Positions 2,818 to 45,483 of a DNA stretch of 45,483 nt are shown here, piece by piece. The DNA is taken from the IMG/VR virus record IMGVR_UViG_3300031999_000048, positions 1 to 45,483 of that record; one strand, written 5' to 3'. Numbering within the stretch: the first letter of the stretch is position 1; every line of letters begins with the position of its first letter. The notes under the pieces were generated by a model. The model ran no database searches. It worked only from the letters and a program-made list of their open reading frames with translations, and was not told the DNA's origin. The stretch comes from a virus. A program made the position numbers and the translations under genes.

Positions 2818-4149
2818 ATGGGCGAGGGGGAAGGGTTGCGGGCGGTGTTGCAGGGGTGGCGAGAGGTGGAGGGGTGGTGCACGGACGAGGAGGGGATGTA
2901 CCTGTATGAGTGTGCGCGGAGATTGCCCAGCGGGTCGGTGGTGGTGGAGATAGGATGCTGGCACGGGAAGAGCACGATCGCGCTGGCGCTGGGCTGCCGG
3001 GAGAGCGGGAGCCGAGTGGTGAGCGTGGATCACCTGCAGGGGGACGGCAGGGTGGTGCCGGCGACGGGCATCGAGACATTTTCGCACAACCTGGTGCGGT
3101 TCGGGGTGCAGGATATCGTGACGCTGCAGGTGATGGACAGTCAGGCGGCGGCGGAGAGGTTTGGGGAATCCCACCCCTTCCCCTCCCTCCCGGGACTTCG
3201 GGATAAGGGAGGGGTGAAGGTGGGGCTGCTGTATGTGGATGGGAGCCACGAGGCGGAGGACGTGTACGGGGATCTTCGAGCGTGGCTGCCGCATTGCAGG
3301 GAGGACGCAATCATTCTGTTTCACGATTACGCGGCGGGGTGGCCGGGGGTGATCCTGGCGACGGGAAAGGCGGCGGCGGAGGGGCTGATCAAACGGGTGC
3401 AGGTGGTGGGCGACATCGGGCATTTCGTACGACCTGGGCGCGGTGACCGCGCTCCTACGGAACCGAGACGGGTATTTTGGACGATCCTGATGGAACGGAA
3501 CCTGTCGTGTTTCGCGGCACAGGCATTGGTGCGGATCGCGGGCCGGTGCGCGCGGGACGGGTTCGCCTACATCGCGCTGCCGTACGCGCGGACGGACGAT
3601 GCGCGCAACACGGCGTGCCTGGCGCTGGCGAAGGGGATGGCGAACGACCGGGACACGCTGGTGATGTTGGACTGCGACCACGAGCACCCGCCGGACATCG
3701 TGCAACGGCTGGTACGGCACGACGTCGGGGTGGTGGGGGCCCTGTACTTCCGCCGATCGGCGCCGCACGACGCGATGTTCTTCATTCGCGCCGAGGACGG
3801 TGAGTTGCAGCAGCCGGAGGAGTGGGACGCGGACACGGGTATCGTGGCGGGGACGGTGGTGGGGACGGGGGCGATCGCGATCCAGGGATGGGTGTTCAAG
3901 CGGCTGATGGAAAAGGGGTTCCAATGGCCGTTCTTCCGCTATACGTATACGGAGGAGGGGATGGTGCAGCCGACGGAGGATATGTACTTCGGGGTGATCT
4001 GCGAAGAGGCGGGCATCCCGCACTACTGCGATTTCAGCACGGTGACGCCGCACTTGACGACGAGCCACGTGGATCAGAAGACATTTGAGGCGCACCGGGG
4101 CGAGGAGCATAAGGTGCCAAGCATGGAGGTGGAGGTGGAGCAATGTTGA
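2818..4149 (+). CDS. Class I SAM methyltransferase - GT-A glycosyltransferase fusion
   Basis: The protein has 443 residues in two domains. Residues 20-195 are a Rossmann methyltransferase of the MTase_24 type: glycine motif VVVEIGCWHGKS (about 41-52), an acidic strand end SVDHLQG, and LLYVDGSHEAEDVYGDL. Residues 222-435 look like a GT-A glycosyltransferase: RTDDARNTACLALAKGM, then the metal-binding MLDCDHEHP (about 283-291), then a long acceptor domain. A class A element (3166-3214) is inserted in frame in a methyltransferase loop. A second palindromic element (about 3427-3455) lies at the junction of the domains, so the fusion may have arisen by loss of a stop through element insertion. Its place among head and tail genes suggests modification of virion proteins or of host-surface glycans. 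Stop overlaps the next start. Confidence 0.75.
   Translation: MGEGEGLRAVLQGWREVEGWCTDEEGMYLYECARRLPSGSVVVEIGCWHGKSTIALALGCRESGSRVVSVDHLQGDGRVVPATGIETFSHNLVRFGVQDIVTLQVMDSQAAAERFGESHPFPSLPGLRDKGGVKVGLLYVDGSHEAEDVYGDLRAWLPHCREDAIILFHDYAAGWPGVILATGKAAAEGLIKRVQVVGDIGHFVRPGRGDRAPTEPRRVFWTILMERNLSCFAAQALVRIAGRCARDGFAYIALPYARTDDARNTACLALAKGMANDRDTLVMLDCDHEHPPDIVQRLVRHDVGVVGALYFRRSAPHDAMFFIRAEDGELQQPEEWDADTGIVAGTVVGTGAIAIQGWVFKRLMEKGFQWPFFRYTYTEEGMVQPTEDMYFGVICEEAGIPHYCDFSTVTPHLTTSHVDQKTFEAHRGEEHKVPSMEVEVEQC
3166..3214 (+). repeat. Class A palindrome inside the methyltransferase domain
   Basis: GGAATCCCACCCC through CGGGATAAGGGAGGGG is read as ESHPFPSLPGLRDKGG. It falls between two core strands and keeps the frame. 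Confidence 0.9.
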
Positions 4150-4364
4150 GGTACGTGGGTGGCGGAGCATTCCTGCCGGGGGTGCCGGCACGGGATTTGA
4201 CGGAGGAAGAGGCCAAGGAGTTGGGCCGCAAGAAACTGGTGGCGTCGGGGCTGTATGAGGATACGGAGAAGACCCCACCCCTTGCCCCCTCCCCTGATAC
4301 CCCGACAAGGTCGGGGCAGGCGGGAGGGGGGAAAAAGGCCGAGGTGAGAGATGGCAGGCGTTAA
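4143..4364 (+). CDS. Small conserved-type phage protein with embedded repeat
   Basis: The protein has 73 residues and overlaps the previous gene by 7 bases and the tail tube gene by 14. Residues 1-40 (MLRYVGGGAFLPGVPARDL, then TEEEAKELGRKKLVASGLYE) resemble the small phage proteins of the VxGxPARDLTxEEA type usually found near tail tube or head genes. The C-terminal half is largely encoded by a class A element (4272-4336: TPPLAPSPDTPTRSGQAGGG), which suggests it is a passenger. The function is unknown. Confidence 0.65.
   Translation: MLRYVGGGAFLPGVPARDLTEEEAKELGRKKLVASGLYEDTEKTPPLAPSPDTPTRSGQAGGGKKAEVRDGRR
4272..4336 (+). repeat. Class A element with inner CCCCGAC/GTCGGGG hairpin
   Basis: CCCCACCCC start, TACCCCGACAAGGTCGGGG inner hairpin and GCGGGAGGGGGG end, read in frame in the small gene at 4143. 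Confidence 0.9.
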
Positions 4365-5352
4365 GGCACTACGCAAGATTCAGATGGGCAAGGAGACGAC
4401 GGCCGGGACGGCGGTGGTGGCGACGGCGATCTGGCGCGGGATGGGGACGATCGAGGACCAGCGCGAGACGGGCCGGGCGGAGGAGGATGTGGGCATCCTG
4501 ATGGCGCCGGCGCGAATTTACGCCAGCCGGTACCAGGCGGGGCTCGAACTGGAGGCGGTGCCGGCGACGTTCGAGCAGTTGCCGTATATCCTGGAGATGG
4601 GCGTCAAGGCGATTTGGACGGGGGCCACGGCCGATGCGGGAAGCGGCAAGGTGTATCTCTACACGGCGCCGACGACTGTGCAGAACACGATCCAGACCTT
4701 GACCATCGAGGGGGGCGACAACCAGCAGGCGGAGGAGATGGAGTTCTGCTTTGCGCGCAGTTTCGCACTGGCCGGGAAGCCGGGCGAGCCGTGGAAGATG
4801 AGCGCGAGCCTGGTGGGGCGGCAGGTGGCGACGACGACGTACACGACGGGCATCAGCATCCCGACGGTGGAGGAGATCCTCTTCTCAAAATCGACGTTGT
4901 ACATCAACACGGCGGGCAGCATCGGGACGACGTCGAAGTCGCAGACGCTGCTGGCGGCTGAGTTGAACGTGGAGGACACGGGGCTGGTGCCGGTGTACAC
5001 GGCGGACGGGCAGTTGTACTTCTCCTTCCAGAAGGGACTGGCGGCCAAGGCGACGCTGCAGATCACGTTCGAGCACGACAGCACGGCGGTGGCGGAGATC
5101 GCGGCGTGGCGGGCGCTGACGGAGCGGGCGATCCGCATCCTGACGACAGGGAACGCGCTGGCGACGACGGGGACGACGCACGCGACGAAGAAGTTGATCA
5201 TCGACTGCTACGGCCAGTGGGAAAAGTTCGACAAGATCGGGGAGCAGGACGGGAACGACATCGTGACGGGGACGTTCCGCATCGGGTACATTGCGTCGGC
5301 GGCGAAGGCGCTGGAGATCACGGTGGTGAATGAGTTGGCGAATCTGACGTAA
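4351..5352 (+). CDS. Major tail tube protein
   Basis: The protein has 333 residues and starts MAGVKALRKIQMGKETTAGT, the typical opening of siphophage tail tube proteins of the long (over 300-residue) class. It has a beta-rich body and a second repeat of the fold (SMALL strand pairs such as LYFSFQKGLAAKATLQITF). It would polymerise as hexameric rings around the tape measure. The next two genes are the overlapping tail assembly chaperones and then the tape measure, which is the fixed siphophage order and supports the call. Start overlaps the preceding gene. Confidence 0.8.
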   Translation: MAGVKALRKIQMGKETTAGTAVVATAIWRGMGTIEDQRETGRAEEDVGILMAPARIYASRYQAGLELEAVPATFEQLPYILEMGVKAIWTGATADAGSGKVYLYTAPTTVQNTIQTLTIEGGDNQQAEEMEFCFARSFALAGKPGEPWKMSASLVGRQVATTTYTTGISIPTVEEILFSKSTLYINTAGSIGTTSKSQTLLAAELNVEDTGLVPVYTADGQLYFSFQKGLAAKATLQITFEHDSTAVAEIAAWRALTERAIRILTTGNALATTGTTHATKKLIIDCYGQWEKFDKIGEQDGNDIVTGTFRIGYIASAAKALEITVVNELANLT

Positions 5353-11828: not shown

Positions 11829-12012
11829 GTGAAGCAGGGAGTAGGAAGTAGGAAGTAAGAAGTAGGAAATAGAAATCCCACCCCTCCCGTGAGGGGACCG
11901 GGACTACGCTGCCCCCTCCCTCCCGGGACTGCGGGATAAGGGAGGGGAGGGCAAGAGCGGAGGCAGGCCCGACCCTGCCAAGGATCAGGGCCGAGGCAGG
12001 GTCGGGGTGCCA
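11829..12012 (+). repeat. Class D and class A elements
   Basis: AGTAGGAAGTAGGAAGTAAG is followed by a class A copy (GGACCGGGACTACGCTG, then GGGATAAGGGAGGGGAGGG) and a CCGACCCTGCCAAGGATCAG/GGGTCGGGG hairpin. No gene in the 246-base gap. Confidence 0.85.
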
Positions 12013-21218: not shown

Positions 21219-24059
21219 ATGACAGTCGATGTTGACGAGATTAAAGGGGCAAACCCGATTGAAGAGGTGATGAACGAGGATGAACCTCTTGAACATAGGA
21301 CAGGTCGCTATGTCAGAGGGGTGCGACACGATAGCCTGGTCGTCGATGTTCGCAATCAGACGTACTACTGGAACGCCAACAACGAATGGGGAGACGTGAT
21401 TGAGTGGGTGCAAAGGCATAGGAAATGTGACTTTACCGAGGCGTGCCGGCTGTTGGCGAGGCGTGCAGGATTGCCCGAACCTGTCTGGCACAATGAGGAT
21501 GGACAACAGGCCCTGGCAGCCAGGACACGCAGCGACGTGTTGACGGTTGCGTGTAGATGGTGGGTAACCCGAATTTGGATCTCGGAAAGCCCCCCCCCTA
21601 GTCAGTCACCACCTCCGACTACATCACAAATTCCCAGCGCGTGCCCCGGGTTGACGTACGCGAGGTGGCGGGGATGGACGGACGAGACGATCAAGGCGGC
21701 CGGGCTGGGCTACACAGATGGAGATATCAAGGGGCTGCGGGGCGAGTTGCAGATGCACGGACTGGATGTGGACAGCCCAGCGGCGAAGGCGGTGCTGATG
21801 GCGCCGGCTGGGCACCTGGTGTACCCCTGCCAGCGAGGGGGCAGGGTGGTGTATTTCGCGACGCGCAGCGCCTCCAGGGAGACGAAGGCGCATTGGAACC
21901 CGCCGAGCGACCTGGTGGGGGAGCGGCAGCCGCTGTTCAACGCGGCCTGGTCGCCGTTCGAGGACGTGATCGTGGTGGTGGAGGGGCAGGCGGATGCGGT
22001 GACGCTGGCGCAGTGGGGGGTGGCAGCGGTGGCACTTTCGGGAACATCGGCGAACGATCTACTACTACGGGTTTTGAGTAAGCACGCGGTGCGGGTTGTG
22101 GCGCTGGACGCGGACGCGGCGGGGGGGACGGCGCGCGGGGCCTTGTCGGACGCGCTGGGGCCGTTGACGCGGGTGTTACGGTGGCCGGAGCCGTGGAAGG
22201 ACGCGAATGAGTGGTTGCAGAAGGACCCCACCCTTGCCCTCCCCTCAGAAGGGGAGGGAACAAGCGGGGAGGGAGCAATCGCGAGGTTGATAGACGAGGC
22301 GCCGACGTGGGCGGAGGTGGTGGCCGGCCAGGCGGGAGAGGCGGAGGGACTGGAGCGGGAGCGGGCACTGAAGCAGGCGTTCAGTCTGTTCACGAGGATG
22401 CCGGATTTCGACTGCGCGATGCGGCGGGAGGAACTGGCGAAGGCGGCACATCTGACACTTCGACAGTTCAATGTGCTACTGAAGACGGCGAGAGGGGAGC
22501 GCGCCGAGGATAACGGCGACGGGACGCCGGCGATCGAGATGGACATCCCGGGTGGGCTGGTGGCGGAGCACCTGGTGGAGACGGTAGCGATCCCACCGGA
22601 GAACATGTCGGGGCTGACGGGGCAGGGATGGACGACAAAGTTCGCGGTGCGCTACCCGGATGGGCGGATCGCGGTGGTGAATTACCTGGACTGGGAGGGG
22701 GTGCGCTACCGGCCGGTGTCGTCGTTGAACCGGGTGCTGACGGAGCGGGTGGTGCGGTTCGCGTCGGGCCTGGGGGAGCGGATGTCGCTGCGCGACCTGG
22801 TGCGGATGGTGCAGGCGACGATCCGCAAGTATGTGGACGTGGATGTCTTCTATGAGACGCTGGCGGCGTATTACGTGCTGTTCACGTGGCTGTACGACGC
22901 GTTCAACACGGTGGCATACCTGCGGCTGCTGGGGGACACGGGGACGGGGAAGAGCCGCTTCCTGCAGGTGGTGGGGGCGCTGTGCTTTCGCTCGACCTCC
23001 GTGTCGGGAGCGGCCACCACGTCGCCGATCTTCAGGATCCTGGACCGCTACCGGGGAACGCTGATTATGGACGAGGCGGATTACCGGGCGAGCGATGAGA
23101 AGGCGGACATCATCAAGATATTGAATACGGGCTATCAGCGGGAGCAGGGGGTGGTGCTGCGGTCGGGGGACAAGAATGTGGGGTTCGAGACGGAGGTGTA
23201 CGTGGTGTACGGGCCGAAGGTGATCGCGACGCGCAAACGGTTTTACGACAAGGCGCTGGAGAGCCGGTGCATCACGTACGAGACGGGGGGGCCGACGACG
23301 CGGCTGGACATCCCGGTGGAGATGCCGAACGACTGGGCGGCGGAAGCGACGGACCTGCGCAACCGGCTGCTGAGGTATCGGATGGAGTATTGGCGGCCGA
23401 ACATCGAGTTGAATTACGCGGCGGTGGAGGTGAGCGCACCGCCGCGGCTGCGGCAGGTGACGGTGGCGCTGCAGACGATCATCGACGATCCGGACCTGCA
23501 ACGCGACCTGCGGACGTTCGTGGAGGAGTATAACCGGCAGTCGATCGTGGAGTCGGGGATGACAGTGGAGGCGAAGGTGCTGGAGGCGGTGTGCGGGGTG
23601 TGGTTTATGGACCTGTACGACAACCACGTGCCGGATATGAGGATGAAACGGCTGGCGCAGGCGGTAAATCTGTTGATCGACGAGGAGAACGAGGGGGACG
23701 GGAGCGCGTCGGGCGGCGCGGCAGGGGACGCGTCTGGCGACGCGGAGGGGGGACAACAAGAGGGCGGCAAGCCGGCCTGGGGACGCAGCCAGGACACGAT
23801 GCGGAAGGTGACGCCGAAGCGGGTGGGACAGGTGGTGCGGACGGTGTTGCATCTGCGGACGGAGCGGGACAGCAACGCGGGGCGGCGGTATATCGTGATG
23901 TACGACCACGAGCGGGTGACGGCGCTGCGGGAGCGGTTTGGGGTGACGGAGGATTGGTTGAACGACGTGATCGCGACGCTGCGGAAGGGGGGAATGGCAG
24001 TCGGGGCGGTGAAGGCGGTGGCGGCGGAGCAGACGGTGTTGAGGTTGAATGAGGAGTGA
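21219..24059 (+). CDS. Primase-helicase fusion (TOPRIM + SF3/AAA-like ATPase)
   Basis: The protein has 946 residues; the ATG at 21219 is chosen because GGAG lies 6 bases upstream. Residues 25-85 mimic a CHC2 primase zinc domain in pattern (YYWNANNEWGDVIEWVQ) but lack the cysteines. A Pro-rich linker (about 122-142) leads to a TOPRIM primase domain (VVVEGQADA at about 251-259 and VVALDADAAGG at about 292). The ATPase has Walker A LLGDTGTGKS (about 570-579) and Walker B TLIMDEAD (about 613-620), then a regulatory C-terminus with a Gly/Asp-rich linker. It should prime and unwind phage DNA. A class A element is inserted in frame at about residues 336-350 between the two enzymatic parts. The first 420 bases have lower codon bias than the rest. 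Confidence 0.88.
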   Translation: MTVDVDEIKGANPIEEVMNEDEPLEHRTGRYVRGVRHDSLVVDVRNQTYYWNANNEWGDVIEWVQRHRKCDFTEACRLLARRAGLPEPVWHNEDGQQALAARTRSDVLTVACRWWVTRIWISESPPPSQSPPPTTSQIPSACPGLTYARWRGWTDETIKAAGLGYTDGDIKGLRGELQMHGLDVDSPAAKAVLMAPAGHLVYPCQRGGRVVYFATRSASRETKAHWNPPSDLVGERQPLFNAAWSPFEDVIVVVEGQADAVTLAQWGVAAVALSGTSANDLLLRVLSKHAVRVVALDADAAGGTARGALSDALGPLTRVLRWPEPWKDANEWLQKDPTLALPSEGEGTSGEGAIARLIDEAPTWAEVVAGQAGEAEGLERERALKQAFSLFTRMPDFDCAMRREELAKAAHLTLRQFNVLLKTARGERAEDNGDGTPAIEMDIPGGLVAEHLVETVAIPPENMSGLTGQGWTTKFAVRYPDGRIAVVNYLDWEGVRYRPVSSLNRVLTERVVRFASGLGERMSLRDLVRMVQATIRKYVDVDVFYETLAAYYVLFTWLYDAFNTVAYLRLLGDTGTGKSRFLQVVGALCFRSTSVSGAATTSPIFRILDRYRGTLIMDEADYRASDEKADIIKILNTGYQREQGVVLRSGDKNVGFETEVYVVYGPKVIATRKRFYDKALESRCITYETGGPTTRLDIPVEMPNDWAAEATDLRNRLLRYRMEYWRPNIELNYAAVEVSAPPRLRQVTVALQTIIDDPDLQRDLRTFVEEYNRQSIVESGMTVEAKVLEAVCGVWFMDLYDNHVPDMRMKRLAQAVNLLIDEENEGDGSASGGAAGDASGDAEGGQQEGGKPAWGRSQDTMRKVTPKRVGQVVRTVLHLRTERDSNAGRRYIVMYDHERVTALRERFGVTEDWLNDVIATLRKGGMAVGAVKAVAAEQTVLRLNEE
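22226..22266 (+). repeat. Class A element inside the primase-helicase
   Basis: CCCCACCCTTGCCCTCCCCT then CAGAAGGGGAGGGA, read as DPTLALPSEGEG. It is the only copy I see between 15.8 and 24 kb. Confidence 0.88.
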
Positions 24060-33280: not shown

Positions 33281-34822
33281 ATGGCATTTTACGATAGGTT
33301 TGTGGACCGGACGATAGCCCGGTTGGGATATACGAAGAGTGCGATGGGGCCGGTGTTTGCGGGGGAGTCGCCGCTGGGGTCGTTCGGGGCGGATTACCTG
33401 GGGCCGGACGCCTCGGAGGAACAGCGGGAGCGGCTGGCGATCACGTCGGCGTGGGTGTACTCGGACATCCGGACGATCGCGAACGAGGCGAGCGCGGCGG
33501 ACGTGGACGTGTTCGAGGGGAAGAAGGAGATCGAGGATCACGCGTTCGAGACGCTGCTGGAGCATCCGAACCCGGACATGACGTCGTCGTGGATGCGGCA
33601 GTATACGCTGTGGTGGCTGCTGTTGCGGGGCGAGGCGTACTGGATGAAGGCGTACGACCGGTCGGGGGAGTTGCGGGAGTTGTGGCCACTGCCGAGCAGC
33701 CACATTCAGCCGATCCCGGACAAACAACGCTACATCAGCGGATACAAGTACACGCCGACGAATGGCCAGGAGGCGGTCGTCTTCCCGAAGGAGCAGATCG
33801 TCTTCTTCCGGCTGCCGAATCCGTTTGATTTCCACCGCGGGCTGTCGCCGCTGACGGCGTACCGGCTGGCGGTGGAGACGGACGTGGCGGCCGCCGAGTG
33901 GAATAAGAAGACGTTCAAGGACGACATGACGCTGCGGATGTTGATCAGCCTGCCGGCGGAGACGGGGCCGGCGACATACACGCAGTTGAAGGCGCAGTTG
34001 ATCGAGGAGTTGGTGGAGCGGAAACGGCGCTACGTGATCGCACGGGCGGGGGATATCAAGGCGACGCAGCTGAGCGTGGCGCAGAAGGATCTGGAGTTCC
34101 TGGCGGGGCGGGGGTTCACGCGGGAGGAGATCGACCGGGTGTTCGGGATCCCGGCGGGGTTCTGGGCGAAGGAAGCGACGAAAGCGAACTCGGACGCGGC
34201 GAAGGCGGTGCTGATCGAGCAGGCGGTGTGGCCGCTGCTGGTGTTGGTGGCGGAGACGCTGACGACGCAGATCCTGCAGGTGGACTTTTCGAAGGGGTTG
34301 CGGTGCGTGTTCGACGACATCCGGGAGACGGACCGGGGTGTGCTGGTGCAGGAGCGGCGGGTGTATTGGCAGGTTAAGACGGTGAATGAGGCGCGGGAGG
34401 AGTTGGGGCTGGAGGCGTTGGAGGACGAGGAGATCGGGGGGACGCTGGTGCCGCTGGCGGTGAAGGGGAATCCCACCCCCAACCCCTCCCTTGGTACCCC
34501 GACAGGGTCGGGGCAGGCGGGAGGGGGGGCCAGGCCGGGGCCGGCGCCGGATGGGACGCCGGAGTTTGCGCCGGAGTTGGTATCGGTGGAAGGTGCGGCG
34601 GCGGATGCGCAGAATGAGGCGCAGATGCGGCGGCAGTTGAAGACCTGGGAGGGGATCGCGCGGCGGCGGATAAGGGCAGGGGAGAGTGCGGGGTATGACT
34701 TCGAGAGCGAGGCGATTCCGGGGGAGTTGAAGGCGGTGATCCTGGAGGGACTGGGGAAGGCGGGGAATGAGGAGGAGGTGAAGGCTGCGTTTGCGGCCGG
34801 GTTTTGGTGGAATTATCCGTGA
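33281..34822 (+). CDS. Portal protein (HK97 type)
   Basis: The protein has 513 residues. The HK97-like portal pattern is clear: SAWVYSDIRTIANEASAADV near the N-terminus, HAFETLLEHPNPDMTSSWM, LLLRGEAYWMKAYDR, LPSSHIQPIPD, and the C-terminal core helices (LEFLAGRGFTREEIDRVFGI, then PAGFWAKEATKANSDAAKAV). It forms the dodecameric DNA channel and docks terminase. A class A element with inner CCCCGAC hairpin is inserted in frame at about residues 397-415 (GNPTPNPSLGTPTGSGQAGG) in the C-terminal region. Another element begins right after the stop. Confidence 0.92.
   Translation: MAFYDRFVDRTIARLGYTKSAMGPVFAGESPLGSFGADYLGPDASEEQRERLAITSAWVYSDIRTIANEASAADVDVFEGKKEIEDHAFETLLEHPNPDMTSSWMRQYTLWWLLLRGEAYWMKAYDRSGELRELWPLPSSHIQPIPDKQRYISGYKYTPTNGQEAVVFPKEQIVFFRLPNPFDFHRGLSPLTAYRLAVETDVAAAEWNKKTFKDDMTLRMLISLPAETGPATYTQLKAQLIEELVERKRRYVIARAGDIKATQLSVAQKDLEFLAGRGFTREEIDRVFGIPAGFWAKEATKANSDAAKAVLIEQAVWPLLVLVAETLTTQILQVDFSKGLRCVFDDIRETDRGVLVQERRVYWQVKTVNEAREELGLEALEDEEIGGTLVPLAVKGNPTPNPSLGTPTGSGQAGGGARPGPAPDGTPEFAPELVSVEGAAADAQNEAQMRRQLKTWEGIARRRIRAGESAGYDFESEAIPGELKAVILEGLGKAGNEEEVKAAFAAGFWWNYP
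34466..34530 (+). repeat. Class A element inside the portal gene
   Basis: GGAATCCCACCCCCAACCCC, then TTGGTACCCCGACAGGGTCG, then GGGCAGGCGGGAGGGGG, in frame. Confidence 0.92.
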
Positions 34823-37285: not shown

Positions 37286-37362
37286 GTTCACCGCGGAGGC
37301 GCAGAGGGCGCAGAAGCGGCAACCCCACCCCAACCCTCCCCGTGAACGGGGAGGGGGAACTA
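37286..37362 (+). repeat. Class C and class A elements before the capsid gene
   Basis: Class C (TTCACCGCGGAGGCGCAGAG) and class A with a CCTCCCCGTGAACGGGGAGG palindrome. A GGAGGAAGGG ribosome site follows. Confidence 0.9.
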
Positions 37363-37383
37363 ACGAGCAATGGAGGAAGGGCG

Positions 37384-38739
37384 ATGAATGTGCAGGAACT
37401 GCTCGCGGCGGCGAAGGTCAAAGCGAGCGAGGCGAAGGCAATGCTGGCAGGCGATGCGCCGGATATGACGAAGGCGAACGCGCTGCTGGCGGAGGCGAAG
37501 GGGTACCGCGAGAAGGCGGAGGCGATCAAGTCGGCGGAGGGGATCCTGGAGTACGCGGCCGGCGTGGTGAGGCCGGAACTGCCGGGCGGTGGAGACCAGG
37601 CGGCCGCGGCCGATGGCCAGGCGGCGCTGAAAGCCGCGAACGTGCTGCGGTTCGGGGCGGTGGACGAGCCGACAGACCTGGTGATGCGCGAGGTGTACGG
37701 GGGCGACTACCGGCAGATCGCGCTGGACCAGATCAAGTCGTTCACGCGCTACATGCGCAGCGGCGCGGTGGACCGGGCGCTGACGCGGCAGGTGTGGGGC
37801 ATCGAGGATGTGAAGTCGATGCTGAAGGACGGGCTGGGGGTCAGCGAGATCAAGGCGACGATGATTGAGGGCCAGGACACGCTGGGCGGGTACGCGGTGC
37901 CGCCGCAGATGGCGGCGGAGATCCTGGGCCGGCTGCCGGGGCTGACGGTGGTACGGGGCGGCGGGGCGACGATCGTGCAGACGGCGAGCAACGCGATTGA
38001 GTGGCTCAAGTTGACGGGCGGGGGCTCGCAGTACCGGACGGCAATGCGCGGGCTGTGGGGCTCGGAAGTAGCGAGCCCGACAGAGGACGACTGGACGTTC
38101 GGGCTGGAGACGATCAACGTCAACACGTACACGTACAAGGCAAGCATGTCGCAGAGCCTGATCGAGGACGCGCAGAACATCGTGTCGATCTTCAACCGGC
38201 TGGTGACGGACACGCTGGCGATCGACGAGGACGCGGCGTTCCTGGTGGGCGACGGGGCGGGGAAGCCGCGGGGCATCCTGCCCTCCAGCGCGAACGGGCA
38301 CTCGATCACCGAGGTTCACAGCGGGCACGCGTCGCTGCTGACGGTGGAGGGGATCAAGAAGTTGCGGCGCGGGGTGGCCAGCCAGTACCGGAACGCGGGG
38401 CGATGCTCGTGGATCGGGAACAGCGCGACGGCGACGGCGATGGAGGTGTTCAAGGATGGCGTGGGACGGTTCTACTTTGAGTACCTGGACGCCGGGGAGA
38501 CGTTCATGCGGTCGGCGTGGCGGGAGAGCGAGAGTATGCCGGACATCGCCGGGAGTGCGTTCCCGCTGTTGTTCGGCGACCTGAGCGGGTACTTCATCGT
38601 GGAGCGGCTGGGGCTGTCGGTGGTGCGGTTCCAGGACTCGGCGACGGGGATCAACAAGGTGGAGTTCCACGTCAGGCGGCGGATCGGCGGGAACCTGCTG
38701 GAGCCGTGGAAGTTGGCGGTGCAGGAAGTGGCGGCGTAG
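37384..38739 (+). CDS. Major capsid protein (HK97 fold)
   Basis: The protein has 451 residues. The N-terminal roughly 130 residues are helical (VQELLAAAKVKASEAKAMLA, then ALLAEAKGYREKAEAIKSAE), as in the delta domain that serves as scaffold and is cleaved by the protease. The HK97 core follows: GQDTLGGYAVPPQMAAEILG, SEVASPTEDDWTFGLETINV, YTYKASMSQSLIEDAQNIVS, then DGAGKPRGILPSSANG, and near the C-terminus LFGDLSGYFIVERLGLSVVR. It assembles the icosahedral shell. Codon use is strongly biased like the other core structural genes. Confidence 0.93.
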   Translation: MNVQELLAAAKVKASEAKAMLAGDAPDMTKANALLAEAKGYREKAEAIKSAEGILEYAAGVVRPELPGGGDQAAAADGQAALKAANVLRFGAVDEPTDLVMREVYGGDYRQIALDQIKSFTRYMRSGAVDRALTRQVWGIEDVKSMLKDGLGVSEIKATMIEGQDTLGGYAVPPQMAAEILGRLPGLTVVRGGGATIVQTASNAIEWLKLTGGGSQYRTAMRGLWGSEVASPTEDDWTFGLETINVNTYTYKASMSQSLIEDAQNIVSIFNRLVTDTLAIDEDAAFLVGDGAGKPRGILPSSANGHSITEVHSGHASLLTVEGIKKLRRGVASQYRNAGRCSWIGNSATATAMEVFKDGVGRFYFEYLDAGETFMRSAWRESESMPDIAGSAFPLLFGDLSGYFIVERLGLSVVRFQDSATGINKVEFHVRRRIGGNLLEPWKLAVQEVAA

Positions 38740-42763: not shown

Positions 42764-43186
42764 ATGAAGATCAAGATTCTGAAGGATGGCCAATACTCAG
42801 ATTTCGAGAGCGAGCCGCGATACCGGGCGGTGCAGCGGGCGGCAGGCGAGGAGGTGGAGTACGTGGAGTGGTACGCGCGGTCGCTGGTGGCGAGCGGGAT
42901 GGCCGCCCCGACCGGGTCGGGGTCCGAGGCATCTCAGCCGGCGATTGAAATCGCGGCTGCTGGGCCGACGGCCGGGATGTCCCCCTCCGGGGACAAACGG
43001 AAGAGGCGGGCCGGCGGGGCCGACTTGTCGGCGGGGGGTGTGGAGTTGGGGAAGGCGAGCGACGGGTCGGCGCTGACGACGATGGATCGGATGCCGATCA
43101 ACTCGCGGATCACGGCGGCGGTGGCGGAGACGACGCTGGTGACGACACAGAACCTGGTGACGGTGACGGTGTACTGGGGGCAGTAA
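42764..43186 (+). CDS. Small phage protein, paralogue of the 877 gene, with embedded repeats
   Basis: The protein has 140 residues. Residues 1-47 (MKIKILKDGQYSDFESEP and onward to VASGMA) match the 877 protein; 69 bases (42835-42903) are identical to 948-1016. Then class G and class B elements (PTGSGSEASQPAIEIAAAGP, then TAGMSPSGDK) are read in frame, and a unique C-terminus (MDRMPINSRITAAVAETTLV) follows. The two paralogues lie on either side of the adhesin cassette. The function is unknown. Confidence 0.6.
   Translation: MKIKILKDGQYSDFESEPRYRAVQRAAGEEVEYVEWYARSLVASGMAAPTGSGSEASQPAIEIAAAGPTAGMSPSGDKRKRRAGGADLSAGGVELGKASDGSALTTMDRMPINSRITAAVAETTLVTTQNLVTVTVYWGQ
42904..43002 (+). repeat. Class G and class B elements inside the 42764 gene
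   Basis: CCCCGACCGGGTCGGGG at about 42906, then GCGATTGAAATCGC and GTCCCCCTCCGGGGAC. Confidence 0.9.
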
Positions 43187-43691: not shown

Positions 43692-45483
43692 ATGGCGACC
43701 TTGATCTTCTGTTGCGGAGCTGAGTGTGGCATCGTTGGGGTGGGCGGCGCGACCACACTGCCCAAGCATTGGGACGTGGCTACTGGTACTGCCCCGACTA
43801 TCCTGACGACTAATCAACGACCGCCAGGGCTTCGGTGTTATCAGTTCGCGACTTCAGCAGCCACCGGATTCCTCACCCATAACATCGTGGCTGGCAACCG
43901 CACGACGGTGCTGCGGTTGGCGGTTCGCACCTCCGTGCGCCCTGGTGTCACAACTACCCTCGTGAACTTCACTGGACCGGCGAGTGTTCCCGGATTGCGC
44001 ATCAGCAGTGCTGGTGTGTTAATCGCGAAGATTAGTACAACGGAACAAACCGGCCCAACGTTGGCGCTGAACACCTGGGCGGTGGTCGAGCTGAAGGCCG
44101 TTACCAGCGGCACGACCACTACCTTGGATTGGTATGTTGATGGGGTCGCACAAACACAGGTCACACTGGCGGGGCAGACCGCTGCCGATATGACCGCCTT
44201 GCAAGTTGGGGTCGTCACCAGCTCCACGATGACACTGCAGGTAGATGACATCGCCCTGAGCGTGACGGCGGGCGACTGGCCGCTCGGGATGGGTTGTATA
44301 CTCGGTTACTCGCCGAATGTGGACGGTGCCCATTCGTTCACTGCCAACGATTTCAAGTACAACAACACCACCACGTTTCTTTATACCGCCACGGATATCA
44401 ATACTTACGTTGACGAAGTGCCGCTGACCTCGATCTCCGACTTCATCAGTCAGAATGTCGTCAACGCCGTTGGTTATGTGCAGGTTGGATTTGCCAATCT
44501 TGTAGATGGCGGGGTCATCAAGGGTGTCGAGGTCGTCAGTGCTATGCATGCCAGCGCAACAGGTGCCAATACGTGCACGCTGAAGCTTAATGATGGCACT
44601 ACACTGAGCGATGTCTACGCCCTTGGTGACTTCTCTAACACGGCCATCACCTATCACTCGAAGCATTATCCGCTAAACCCGACTGGTGGCGCGTGGTCGA
44701 GTGGTATCTTTGATGCGTTGTTGGCGCGCTGGGGTTATGCCACCGACGTGGTCGGCATACCGTTCCTCGATGCAATCATGCTGGAAGTTGATCTCATCAT
44801 CAATGCCAGCGTGACCGTCCCAGGGCCAGCGACCGCGCCGGCCGCATCTGTGGTGCCGGTAGTCACGCCGGGAGTTGAAGTTGTGGCGGTAGTTGCCACA
44901 GCGCCGGCGGCTAGCGTAACCCCGACGGCTACAGGCACTGCCGTTGTAGCAGGCGCACTGGCGACCGCACCGGCGGCAGCAATCGCGCCGGCGATCGGAG
45001 GCACCGCCGAGGTAACTGCCGTAATGAGTACTGCGGTGGCGGCGGGTATCGCACCTGCAGTTGTGGGCGAGGCCAACGCTAACGTTCTAGCACCTATGGC
45101 GGCCTGCGCGGCCCAGGCAGAGGCACCGGCAGTCACACCGGGAGTCGTCGTAATAGCCACAGTGGGTGCCGCAAACGCTGAGGCGCTTGTGCCTACTGTC
45201 ACTCCGGGAGTCGAGGCAAGTGCGGTATTGGCTGAGGCAATAGCCGAAGCAGAGGTGCCGATAGTCACCGGTACGGCGGCCATCACGTCAGTAGTGGCGG
45301 GGGCGAGTGCCGATGCCATGTCCCCTGCGGTGGCTGGCGCGGCCACGATTGCGGCTGAGGTATGTCTAGCGACAGTGGAGGCATTGGCGCCGACAGTTAC
45401 CGGCACGGCCAGTGTGGTTAGTGTTGTGGCTGGGGCAAGTGCTGAGGCAGCCATACCAGCACTCAACAGCACGGTATAAATAA
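43692..45483 (+). CDS. Adhesin with LamG-like head and Ala/Val repeat stalk, N-terminal part
   Basis: 597 codons in the window; the gene continues at base 1 to the stop at 538. Residues 1-200 look like a concanavalin/LamG-type sandwich (FATSAATGFLTHNIVAGNRT, then LNTWAVVELKAVTSGTTTTL, then DWYVDGVAQTQVTLAG). Residues 205-375 form a second beta domain (YVDEVPLTSISDFISQNVVN). From about 375 to 720 there are degenerate repeats of about 24 residues. The TAA at 45477-45479 exists only in this end copy: the same place at base 127 has G (GAA). I read the stop as an end-of-contig error or variant, not the real end. Likely host-binding fibre or capsid fibre. Confidence 0.75.
45351..45483. repeat. Terminal redundancy (copy of 1-133)
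   Basis: Identical to 1-133 except T at 45477 versus G at 127. It indicates a circular assembly or circularly permuted genome. Confidence 0.95.

Follow-up and report, generated by a model that had tools for sequence, protein, structure and literature searches.

The gene described here encodes, in one frame, a methyltransferase (MT) followed by a glycosyltransferase (GT), and its product is probably a bifunctional enzyme that decorates the virion, formed by the joining of adjacent MT and GT genes and entered later, within the MT, by a repeat element. The window analysed is the entire IMG/VR record IMGVR_UViG_3300031999_000048 (45,483 bp) and, given that a 133-bp direct repeat, 99% identical between its copies, lies at both ends of the record (1-133 and 45351-45483), it is likely to be a complete phage genome. 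Terminase, portal, MuF-like, HK97-type capsid, tail tube, tape measure, integrase and primase-like products are encoded in it and, given the integrase gene, the phage may be temperate. There is also a 140-nt duplication, 87% identical, at 877-1016 and 42764-42903, within two small ORFs. A second phage, IMGVR_UViG_3300031772_000100 (L043), encodes the same fusion, 421 aa in length. The features of the window are:

2335-2766, + strand: upstream gene, putative tail terminator, with same-slot homologues in several phages
2770-2794, + strand: TTCACCGCAGAGGCGCAGAGGACGC, a dispersed repeat with 7 copies in the window, this one lying shortly before the fusion gene
2818-4149, + strand: MT-GT fusion gene, 443 aa, an open frame; the L043 fusion is 57% identical over the whole length
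2854-3432, + strand: Methyltransf_24 domain, aa ~13-205 (PF13578, E 1.8e-23; four phage MT homologues)
2947-2976, + strand: predicted SAM-binding motif I, EIGCWHGKST, read from the sequence; L043 counterpart EIGAWRGRST
3163-3207, + strand: in-frame insertion of ~15 residues in the MT (GESHPFPSLPGLRDK), missing from four phage homologues and from L043
3181-3214, + strand: repeat element core of 34 nt, identical to intergenic 2301-2334, with 3 copies at one mismatch or fewer
3433-3468, + strand: interdomain linker PGRGDRAPTEPR, from the L043 alignment; aa 208-214 are of low confidence in the full-length model
3438-3452, no strand assigned: perfect palindrome GCGCGGTGACCGCGC with 7-bp arms, occurring once in the window, within the linker
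3466-4149, + strand: GT-A glycosyltransferase domain, aa ~217-443 (18-relative alignment, model pLDDT 87, PDB fold matches)
3664-3693, + strand: MLDCDHEHPP, predicted DxD metal-binding motif; D70, D72 and H73 are invariant across 18 relatives
3976-3981, + strand: ED motif, aa 387-388, probable catalytic region by analogy with GT-A enzymes, invariant across 18 relatives
4143-4364, + strand: gene for a small YVGGG protein, overlapping the GT stop; L044 has the same overlap
4351-5352, + strand: tail tube protein (Phage_tube_2), candidate substrate (PF18906, E 2.8e-7; 66% identical in L043)

The assignment of the GT half follows from its fold and its conserved motifs. YxRxDxxRN, MLDxDH, ED and PH are invariant across the 18 relatives, and the AlphaFold2 model of the domain (pTM 0.86), when searched with Foldseek, matched the GT domains of LH3, COLGALT1 and mimivirus R699 with E-values of 1.8e-9 to 2.5e-7; model, fold matches and DxD invariance together indicate a GT-A fold. 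Neither PF00535 nor any other Pfam glycosyltransferase family matches the GT module of the window (3463-4149), and PF00535 matches the relatives L002 and L056 below its cut-off. The sole PHROG match is a weak one to the PHROG 12406 glycosyltransferase (E 0.003); 14 of the 18 aligned relatives match PHROG 1574, which has no functional name, and PHROG 34859 is also found in the family. A tblastn search of the GT against 50,697 phage records gave no match, and narrow patterns identified no relatives in GTDB genomes. The pairing of an MTase_24-like domain and a GT-A domain bearing MLDCDHEHP, proposed by an earlier sequence-only reading of this DNA, is borne out by the uninterrupted 443-aa frame, the PF13578 match and the confident GT-A model.

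The MT half belongs to Methyltransf_24: the PF13578 profile matches aa 43-171 with 83.9 bits against a gathering score of 26.3 (83.3 bits for L043), and homology extends to aa ~200. The best PDB match by sequence is 6g7d (profile E 1.1e-10), which we take to be MeT1, a mycobacterial sugar (mannoside) O-methyltransferase, and a query of IMG/VR with the MT alone, as a single sequence, gave no match. In the full-length structure model, for which the alignment held two sequences, the MT half is poor. The window MT is 16 aa longer (net) than the L043 MT, precisely at the position of the repeat element, and an E-INS-i alignment with four other phage MTs places a 15-aa insertion in the window MT; this insertion is invisible in the default MAFFT alignment and the hmmsearch profile aligned through it, and it is revealed by E-INS-i and by L043. 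The sequence-only reading was right to see a copy of an element in an MT loop, as the core at 3181-3214, besides its identity to the intergenic copy, differs by only 1 nt from 11914-11947, where shuffling expects 0 such copies. The insert directly precedes the VGLLYVDG strand and sits between a helix and this strand, where a loop is likely. Rickettsia palindromic elements are palindromic repeats found in frame inside open coding genes, and the window MT has the corresponding properties: a repeat copy within the gene that is absent from homologues and keeps the frame. The likeness is one of behaviour only, as the window holds unrelated GC-rich hairpin families, in a phage. Given that L043 and the more distant MTs are all without the element, the simplest reading is that its in-frame entry into the window MT came once the lineages of the window and L043 had separated.

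Dispersed repeats occur across 1030-43038 of the window, 69 copies of eight families with 27 inside forward ORFs, as counted by regex with loose patterns and a hand-picked ORF list. Examples are:

1277-1330: dispersed repeat
2300-2346: dispersed repeat
4273-4331: dispersed repeat
22226-22273: dispersed repeat
34483-34530: dispersed repeat

The in-frame copies, for instance in the primase-like and portal genes, encode peptides like NPTPNPS and SHPLPPP; comparison of the portal protein with those of L003 and L010 for in-frame elements gave a highly divergent alignment. Seven exact repeat patterns had no match in the other loci compared (~0.9 Mb), and an exact search with part of one repeat element gave no match in GTDB genomes or IMG/VR.

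The origin of the fusion is best approached through the two phages that carry it and through relatives in which MT and GT are apart. The MT-GT fusion itself was found in only two phages, that of the window and L043, whose proteins are 46% identical in the MT, 63% in the GT and 66% in the tail tube. In L043 the fusion occupies the same slot, with a terminator-like gene on one side and the tail tube on the other; the terminator-like gene of the window is without any profile match of its own, and its homologue in L043 has a weak tail-terminator PHROG match (E 0.02). L043 also encodes, further upstream (955-1614), another, divergent member of this GT family. An IQ-TREE analysis of 73 GT domains unites the window and L043 in one clade (support 100/96) and places L044 as its sister (100/94). 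L044 has a stand-alone GT in a gene order identical to that of the window (terminator, GT, the small overlapping YVGGG gene, tail tube), and its 31-kb record holds no match to an MT of the window/L043 type. In L049, MT and GT are adjacent genes in the same frame, with one TAG and a 16-codon spacer between them, and the MT is 40.6% identical to that of L043. Separate homologues, which the sequence-only reading had suggested looking for in related phages, thus exist both as a GT alone (L044) and as an adjacent gene pair (L049). The L049 GT belongs to another clade, which makes L049 a parallel and not an ancestor; nevertheless, it illustrates how such a fusion could arise: with the genes so arranged, losing a single stop could be enough.

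This raises the question of the short palindrome at about 3427-3455, which the sequence-only reading took for an element whose insertion could have caused the fusion. Its perfect part, 3438-3452, does lie inside that interval and, as had been claimed, where the two domains meet: the linker that contains it separates the end of the MT (aa ~205) from the beginning of the GT (aa ~217). Its standing as an element is another matter. There is no second copy in the window and none in the L043 record, the best match in the L044 record is at 2 mismatches, the exact 23-mer is absent from IMG/VR (from which the window's own record was possibly excluded), and the 44-nt junction, when BLASTed against plasmids, gave only chance-level GC-rich matches. 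Given the absence of further copies in the window and of any in IMG/VR (exact 23-mer) or the L043 record, the palindrome is not supported as a mobile element. Palindromes with arms of at least 7 bp are in excess in the window (56 observed against a shuffle mean of ~24), and many of the excess ones belong to dispersed repeat families, to which the junction palindrome does not belong. With the amino acids fixed, 21 of 2000 synonymous-codon shuffles (~1%) gave so tight a linker palindrome, and it is best described as mildly unusual and noticed after the fact. The linkers of the window (PGRGDRAPTEPR) and L043 (AGVNPDAPTK) both contain APT and differ by only 3 residues (net, between GHF and FW), that of L043 being the shorter; gaps can be placed in more than one way in the DNA alignment, and the comparison uses just the net difference of 9 nt. 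Given that L043 is fused and lacks the palindrome, the fusion predates the palindrome as it now stands or is independent of it. Among the fusion junctions scanned, those of L002, L006, L028, L029 and L032 (L055, L056, L097 and L118 lie outside the scan), none has a perfect palindrome with 7-bp arms, and L028 has one with 6-bp arms. It is therefore very unlikely that the linker derives from a small palindromic element which landed between separate MT and GT genes and did away with the stop, even though the palindrome falls within the linker, is rare among synonymous shuffles and has a counterpart of sorts in L049. The 30-kb L049 record (G002) has 15 exact copies of its own palindrome, GTACCCCAGGGGTAC, which looks like an operator or stoperator-type site; several are intergenic and one lies in the MT/GT spacer, so that an element-in-spacer history is possible for such gene pairs generally. 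Copies of GTACCCCAGGGGTAC include:

L049, 529-558: palindrome copy
L049, 2163-2192: palindrome copy
L049, 2954-2983: palindrome copy
L049, 3435-3464: palindrome copy
L049, 6626-6655: palindrome copy

The sequence-only reading had named the same fusion with an unrelated linker in many distant phages as the observation that would speak against its proposal; what was found agrees with this only in part: one phage, L043, with the same fusion and a different linker, and several analogous fusions with unrelated junctions. The preferred reading is that adjacent, complete MT and GT genes would have been joined end to end in one frame, in that order and once, in the lineage of the window and L043, and that the junction palindrome would be part of a fast-changing linker; the repeat element would have entered the MT, in frame, after the divergence from L043.

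The GT of the fusion belongs to a family in which such joining is recurrent. Mapped on the GT-domain tree, the stand-alone and fused states require 7 changes, gains and losses counted together, of which at least 5 are forced by well-supported branches. Sulfotransferase-like N-terminal domains are fused to the GT in L002, L055 and L056; the Pfam sulfotransferase matches are weak and all below the curated cut-off (E 0.012 for L002, 7e-5 for L056 and 0.00045 for L006), and for L055, which has no such match, the label is a reading of similar motifs. A GT2 domain is the N-terminal partner in L097, a different MT occupies this position in the same slot in L118, and an MT is C-terminal, again in the same slot, in L032, the MT matches of L032 and L118 being below or near cut-offs. 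An MptE-like domain lies C-terminal to the GT in L028, L029 and L031. The most elaborate arrangement is a single ORF in L006, in the order MT, GT2, sulfotransferase, GT:

L006, 2988-5666: multidomain ORF of ~890 aa with methyltransferase, GT2, sulfotransferase-like and GT-A domains; another MT gene lies just upstream

A further ORF, L125:4110-5549, has an N-terminal part that is GT-like by eye, with no Pfam support, and a C-terminal Methyltransf_24 domain, which raises the possibility that this MT type has paired with GTs more than once, and also in reverse order. All of the GT loci sampled are viral contigs, and in 58 of 70 the flanks contain capsid, connector, terminator, tube or other structural genes, so that the GT gene lies among virion genes; with flanks this short and queries this divergent, the true number is likely to be higher. 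The sequence-only reading placed the gene 'beside capsid genes'; in the window the immediate neighbours are tail genes, the putative tail terminator and the tail tube, and the major capsid gene (37342-38739) would lie ~9.4 kb further upstream on a circular record. The more interesting part of the result lies outside 2818-4149, in a GT family mostly without functional name whose members, encoded close to capsid and tail-tube genes, have been fused to other enzymes time and again. It is conceivable, though we hold it only tentatively, that this GT is a modular hub within structural operons, repeatedly fused to capping or modifying enzymes (MT, sulfotransferase-like, GT2, MptE-like) and combinatorially diversifying virion glycans, with intercistronic palindromes sometimes read through as linkers.

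In the proposed mechanism, the GT-A domain would use a nucleotide-sugar donor to glycosylate a virion protein soon after its synthesis, with the metal bound at the DxD motif and catalysis near ED; the most likely acceptor would be the capsid or the tail tube, whose gene lies directly downstream, and the Methyltransf_24 domain would then O-methylate that sugar in a SAM-dependent manner, giving a capped glycan. Here we infer the substrate, the donor sugar, the order of the reactions and the virion target, as well as stop-codon loss as the step of fusion. Virion decoration is plausible in that it fits the gene setting, the fold matches, which include protein O-glycosyltransferases, the sugar-MT relative and the glycan-modification partners, and the earlier suggestion of glycosylated or methylated virion proteins accordingly gains from context (the 58 of 70 loci, the LH3 and COLGALT1 folds and the 6g7d match). 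GTs in structural operons could nevertheless modify something other than the virion. One such scenario has both domains of the fusion acting on a polysaccharide of the host surface, in seroconversion or superinfection exclusion. O-antigen conversion by phage GTs is known, 1 of 18 family members weakly matches a GtrB-like PHROG (E 0.006), and the integrase would suit a temperate phage. This scenario is unlikely, given that the gene lies within the late structural operon and that its family keeps company with capsid and tail genes; seroconversion genes are usually outside this operon and accompanied by flippases. It is also quite unlikely that the in-frame element inactivated the MT half and that the protein acts as a GT alone. 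The ~15-16 residues inserted right before the VGLLYVDG strand and the sister L044, which carries the GT without an MT, would be consistent with such a loss; however, recognisable SAM-site and DGSH/HDY motifs are retained and match L043, the frame is open, and the insert lies in what is likely a loop. A bifunctional enzyme acting on the virion is the more probable reading.

Comparison with known systems places this proposal among several partial parallels. In mycobacteriophages, phage-encoded GTs are thought to glycosylate capsid and tail-tube subunits (Freeman et al. 2023, via PMC12619734, PMC11256854). The window is alike in its phage-encoded GT and in its proposed targets, and differs in that its GT is of another family by sequence, is fused to an MT and lies in a structural operon. 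In Actinoplanes phage phiAsp2, Pas33 (a GT) is followed directly by Pas34 (Methyltransf_24), downstream of a putative major head gene; these are separate genes, however, and the MT, only 26% identical, forms the C-terminal portion of a protein of 596 aa. The GT module is akin to members of the PHROG 1574 and PHROG 34859 family, although it matches only PHROG 12406 itself, and weakly. LH3 and COLGALT1, the collagen glycosyltransferases that are the best solved folds for the GT (E ~1e-9 to 1e-8), are protein O-glycosyltransferases; they are eukaryotic multidomain enzymes with 14-16% identity and share no sequence-level membership. MeT1, to which we assign 6g7d, likewise has a sugar substrate but is distant, has no GT fusion and acts on free polysaccharide precursors. 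Its activity, that of a mycobacterial mannoside 1-O-methyltransferase, has been described (PMC9883506).

The window MT provides a case of a repeat element tolerated in frame inside a phage enzyme, and the pairing of domains suggests a methylated sugar on the tail tube or capsid as the product to look for. To our knowledge, phage virion glycosylation is recently recognised and little explored beyond mycobacteriophages. If the proposal is true, the virions of many uncultured phages would bear capped, variable glycans of their own making, which could influence adsorption, stability and recognition.
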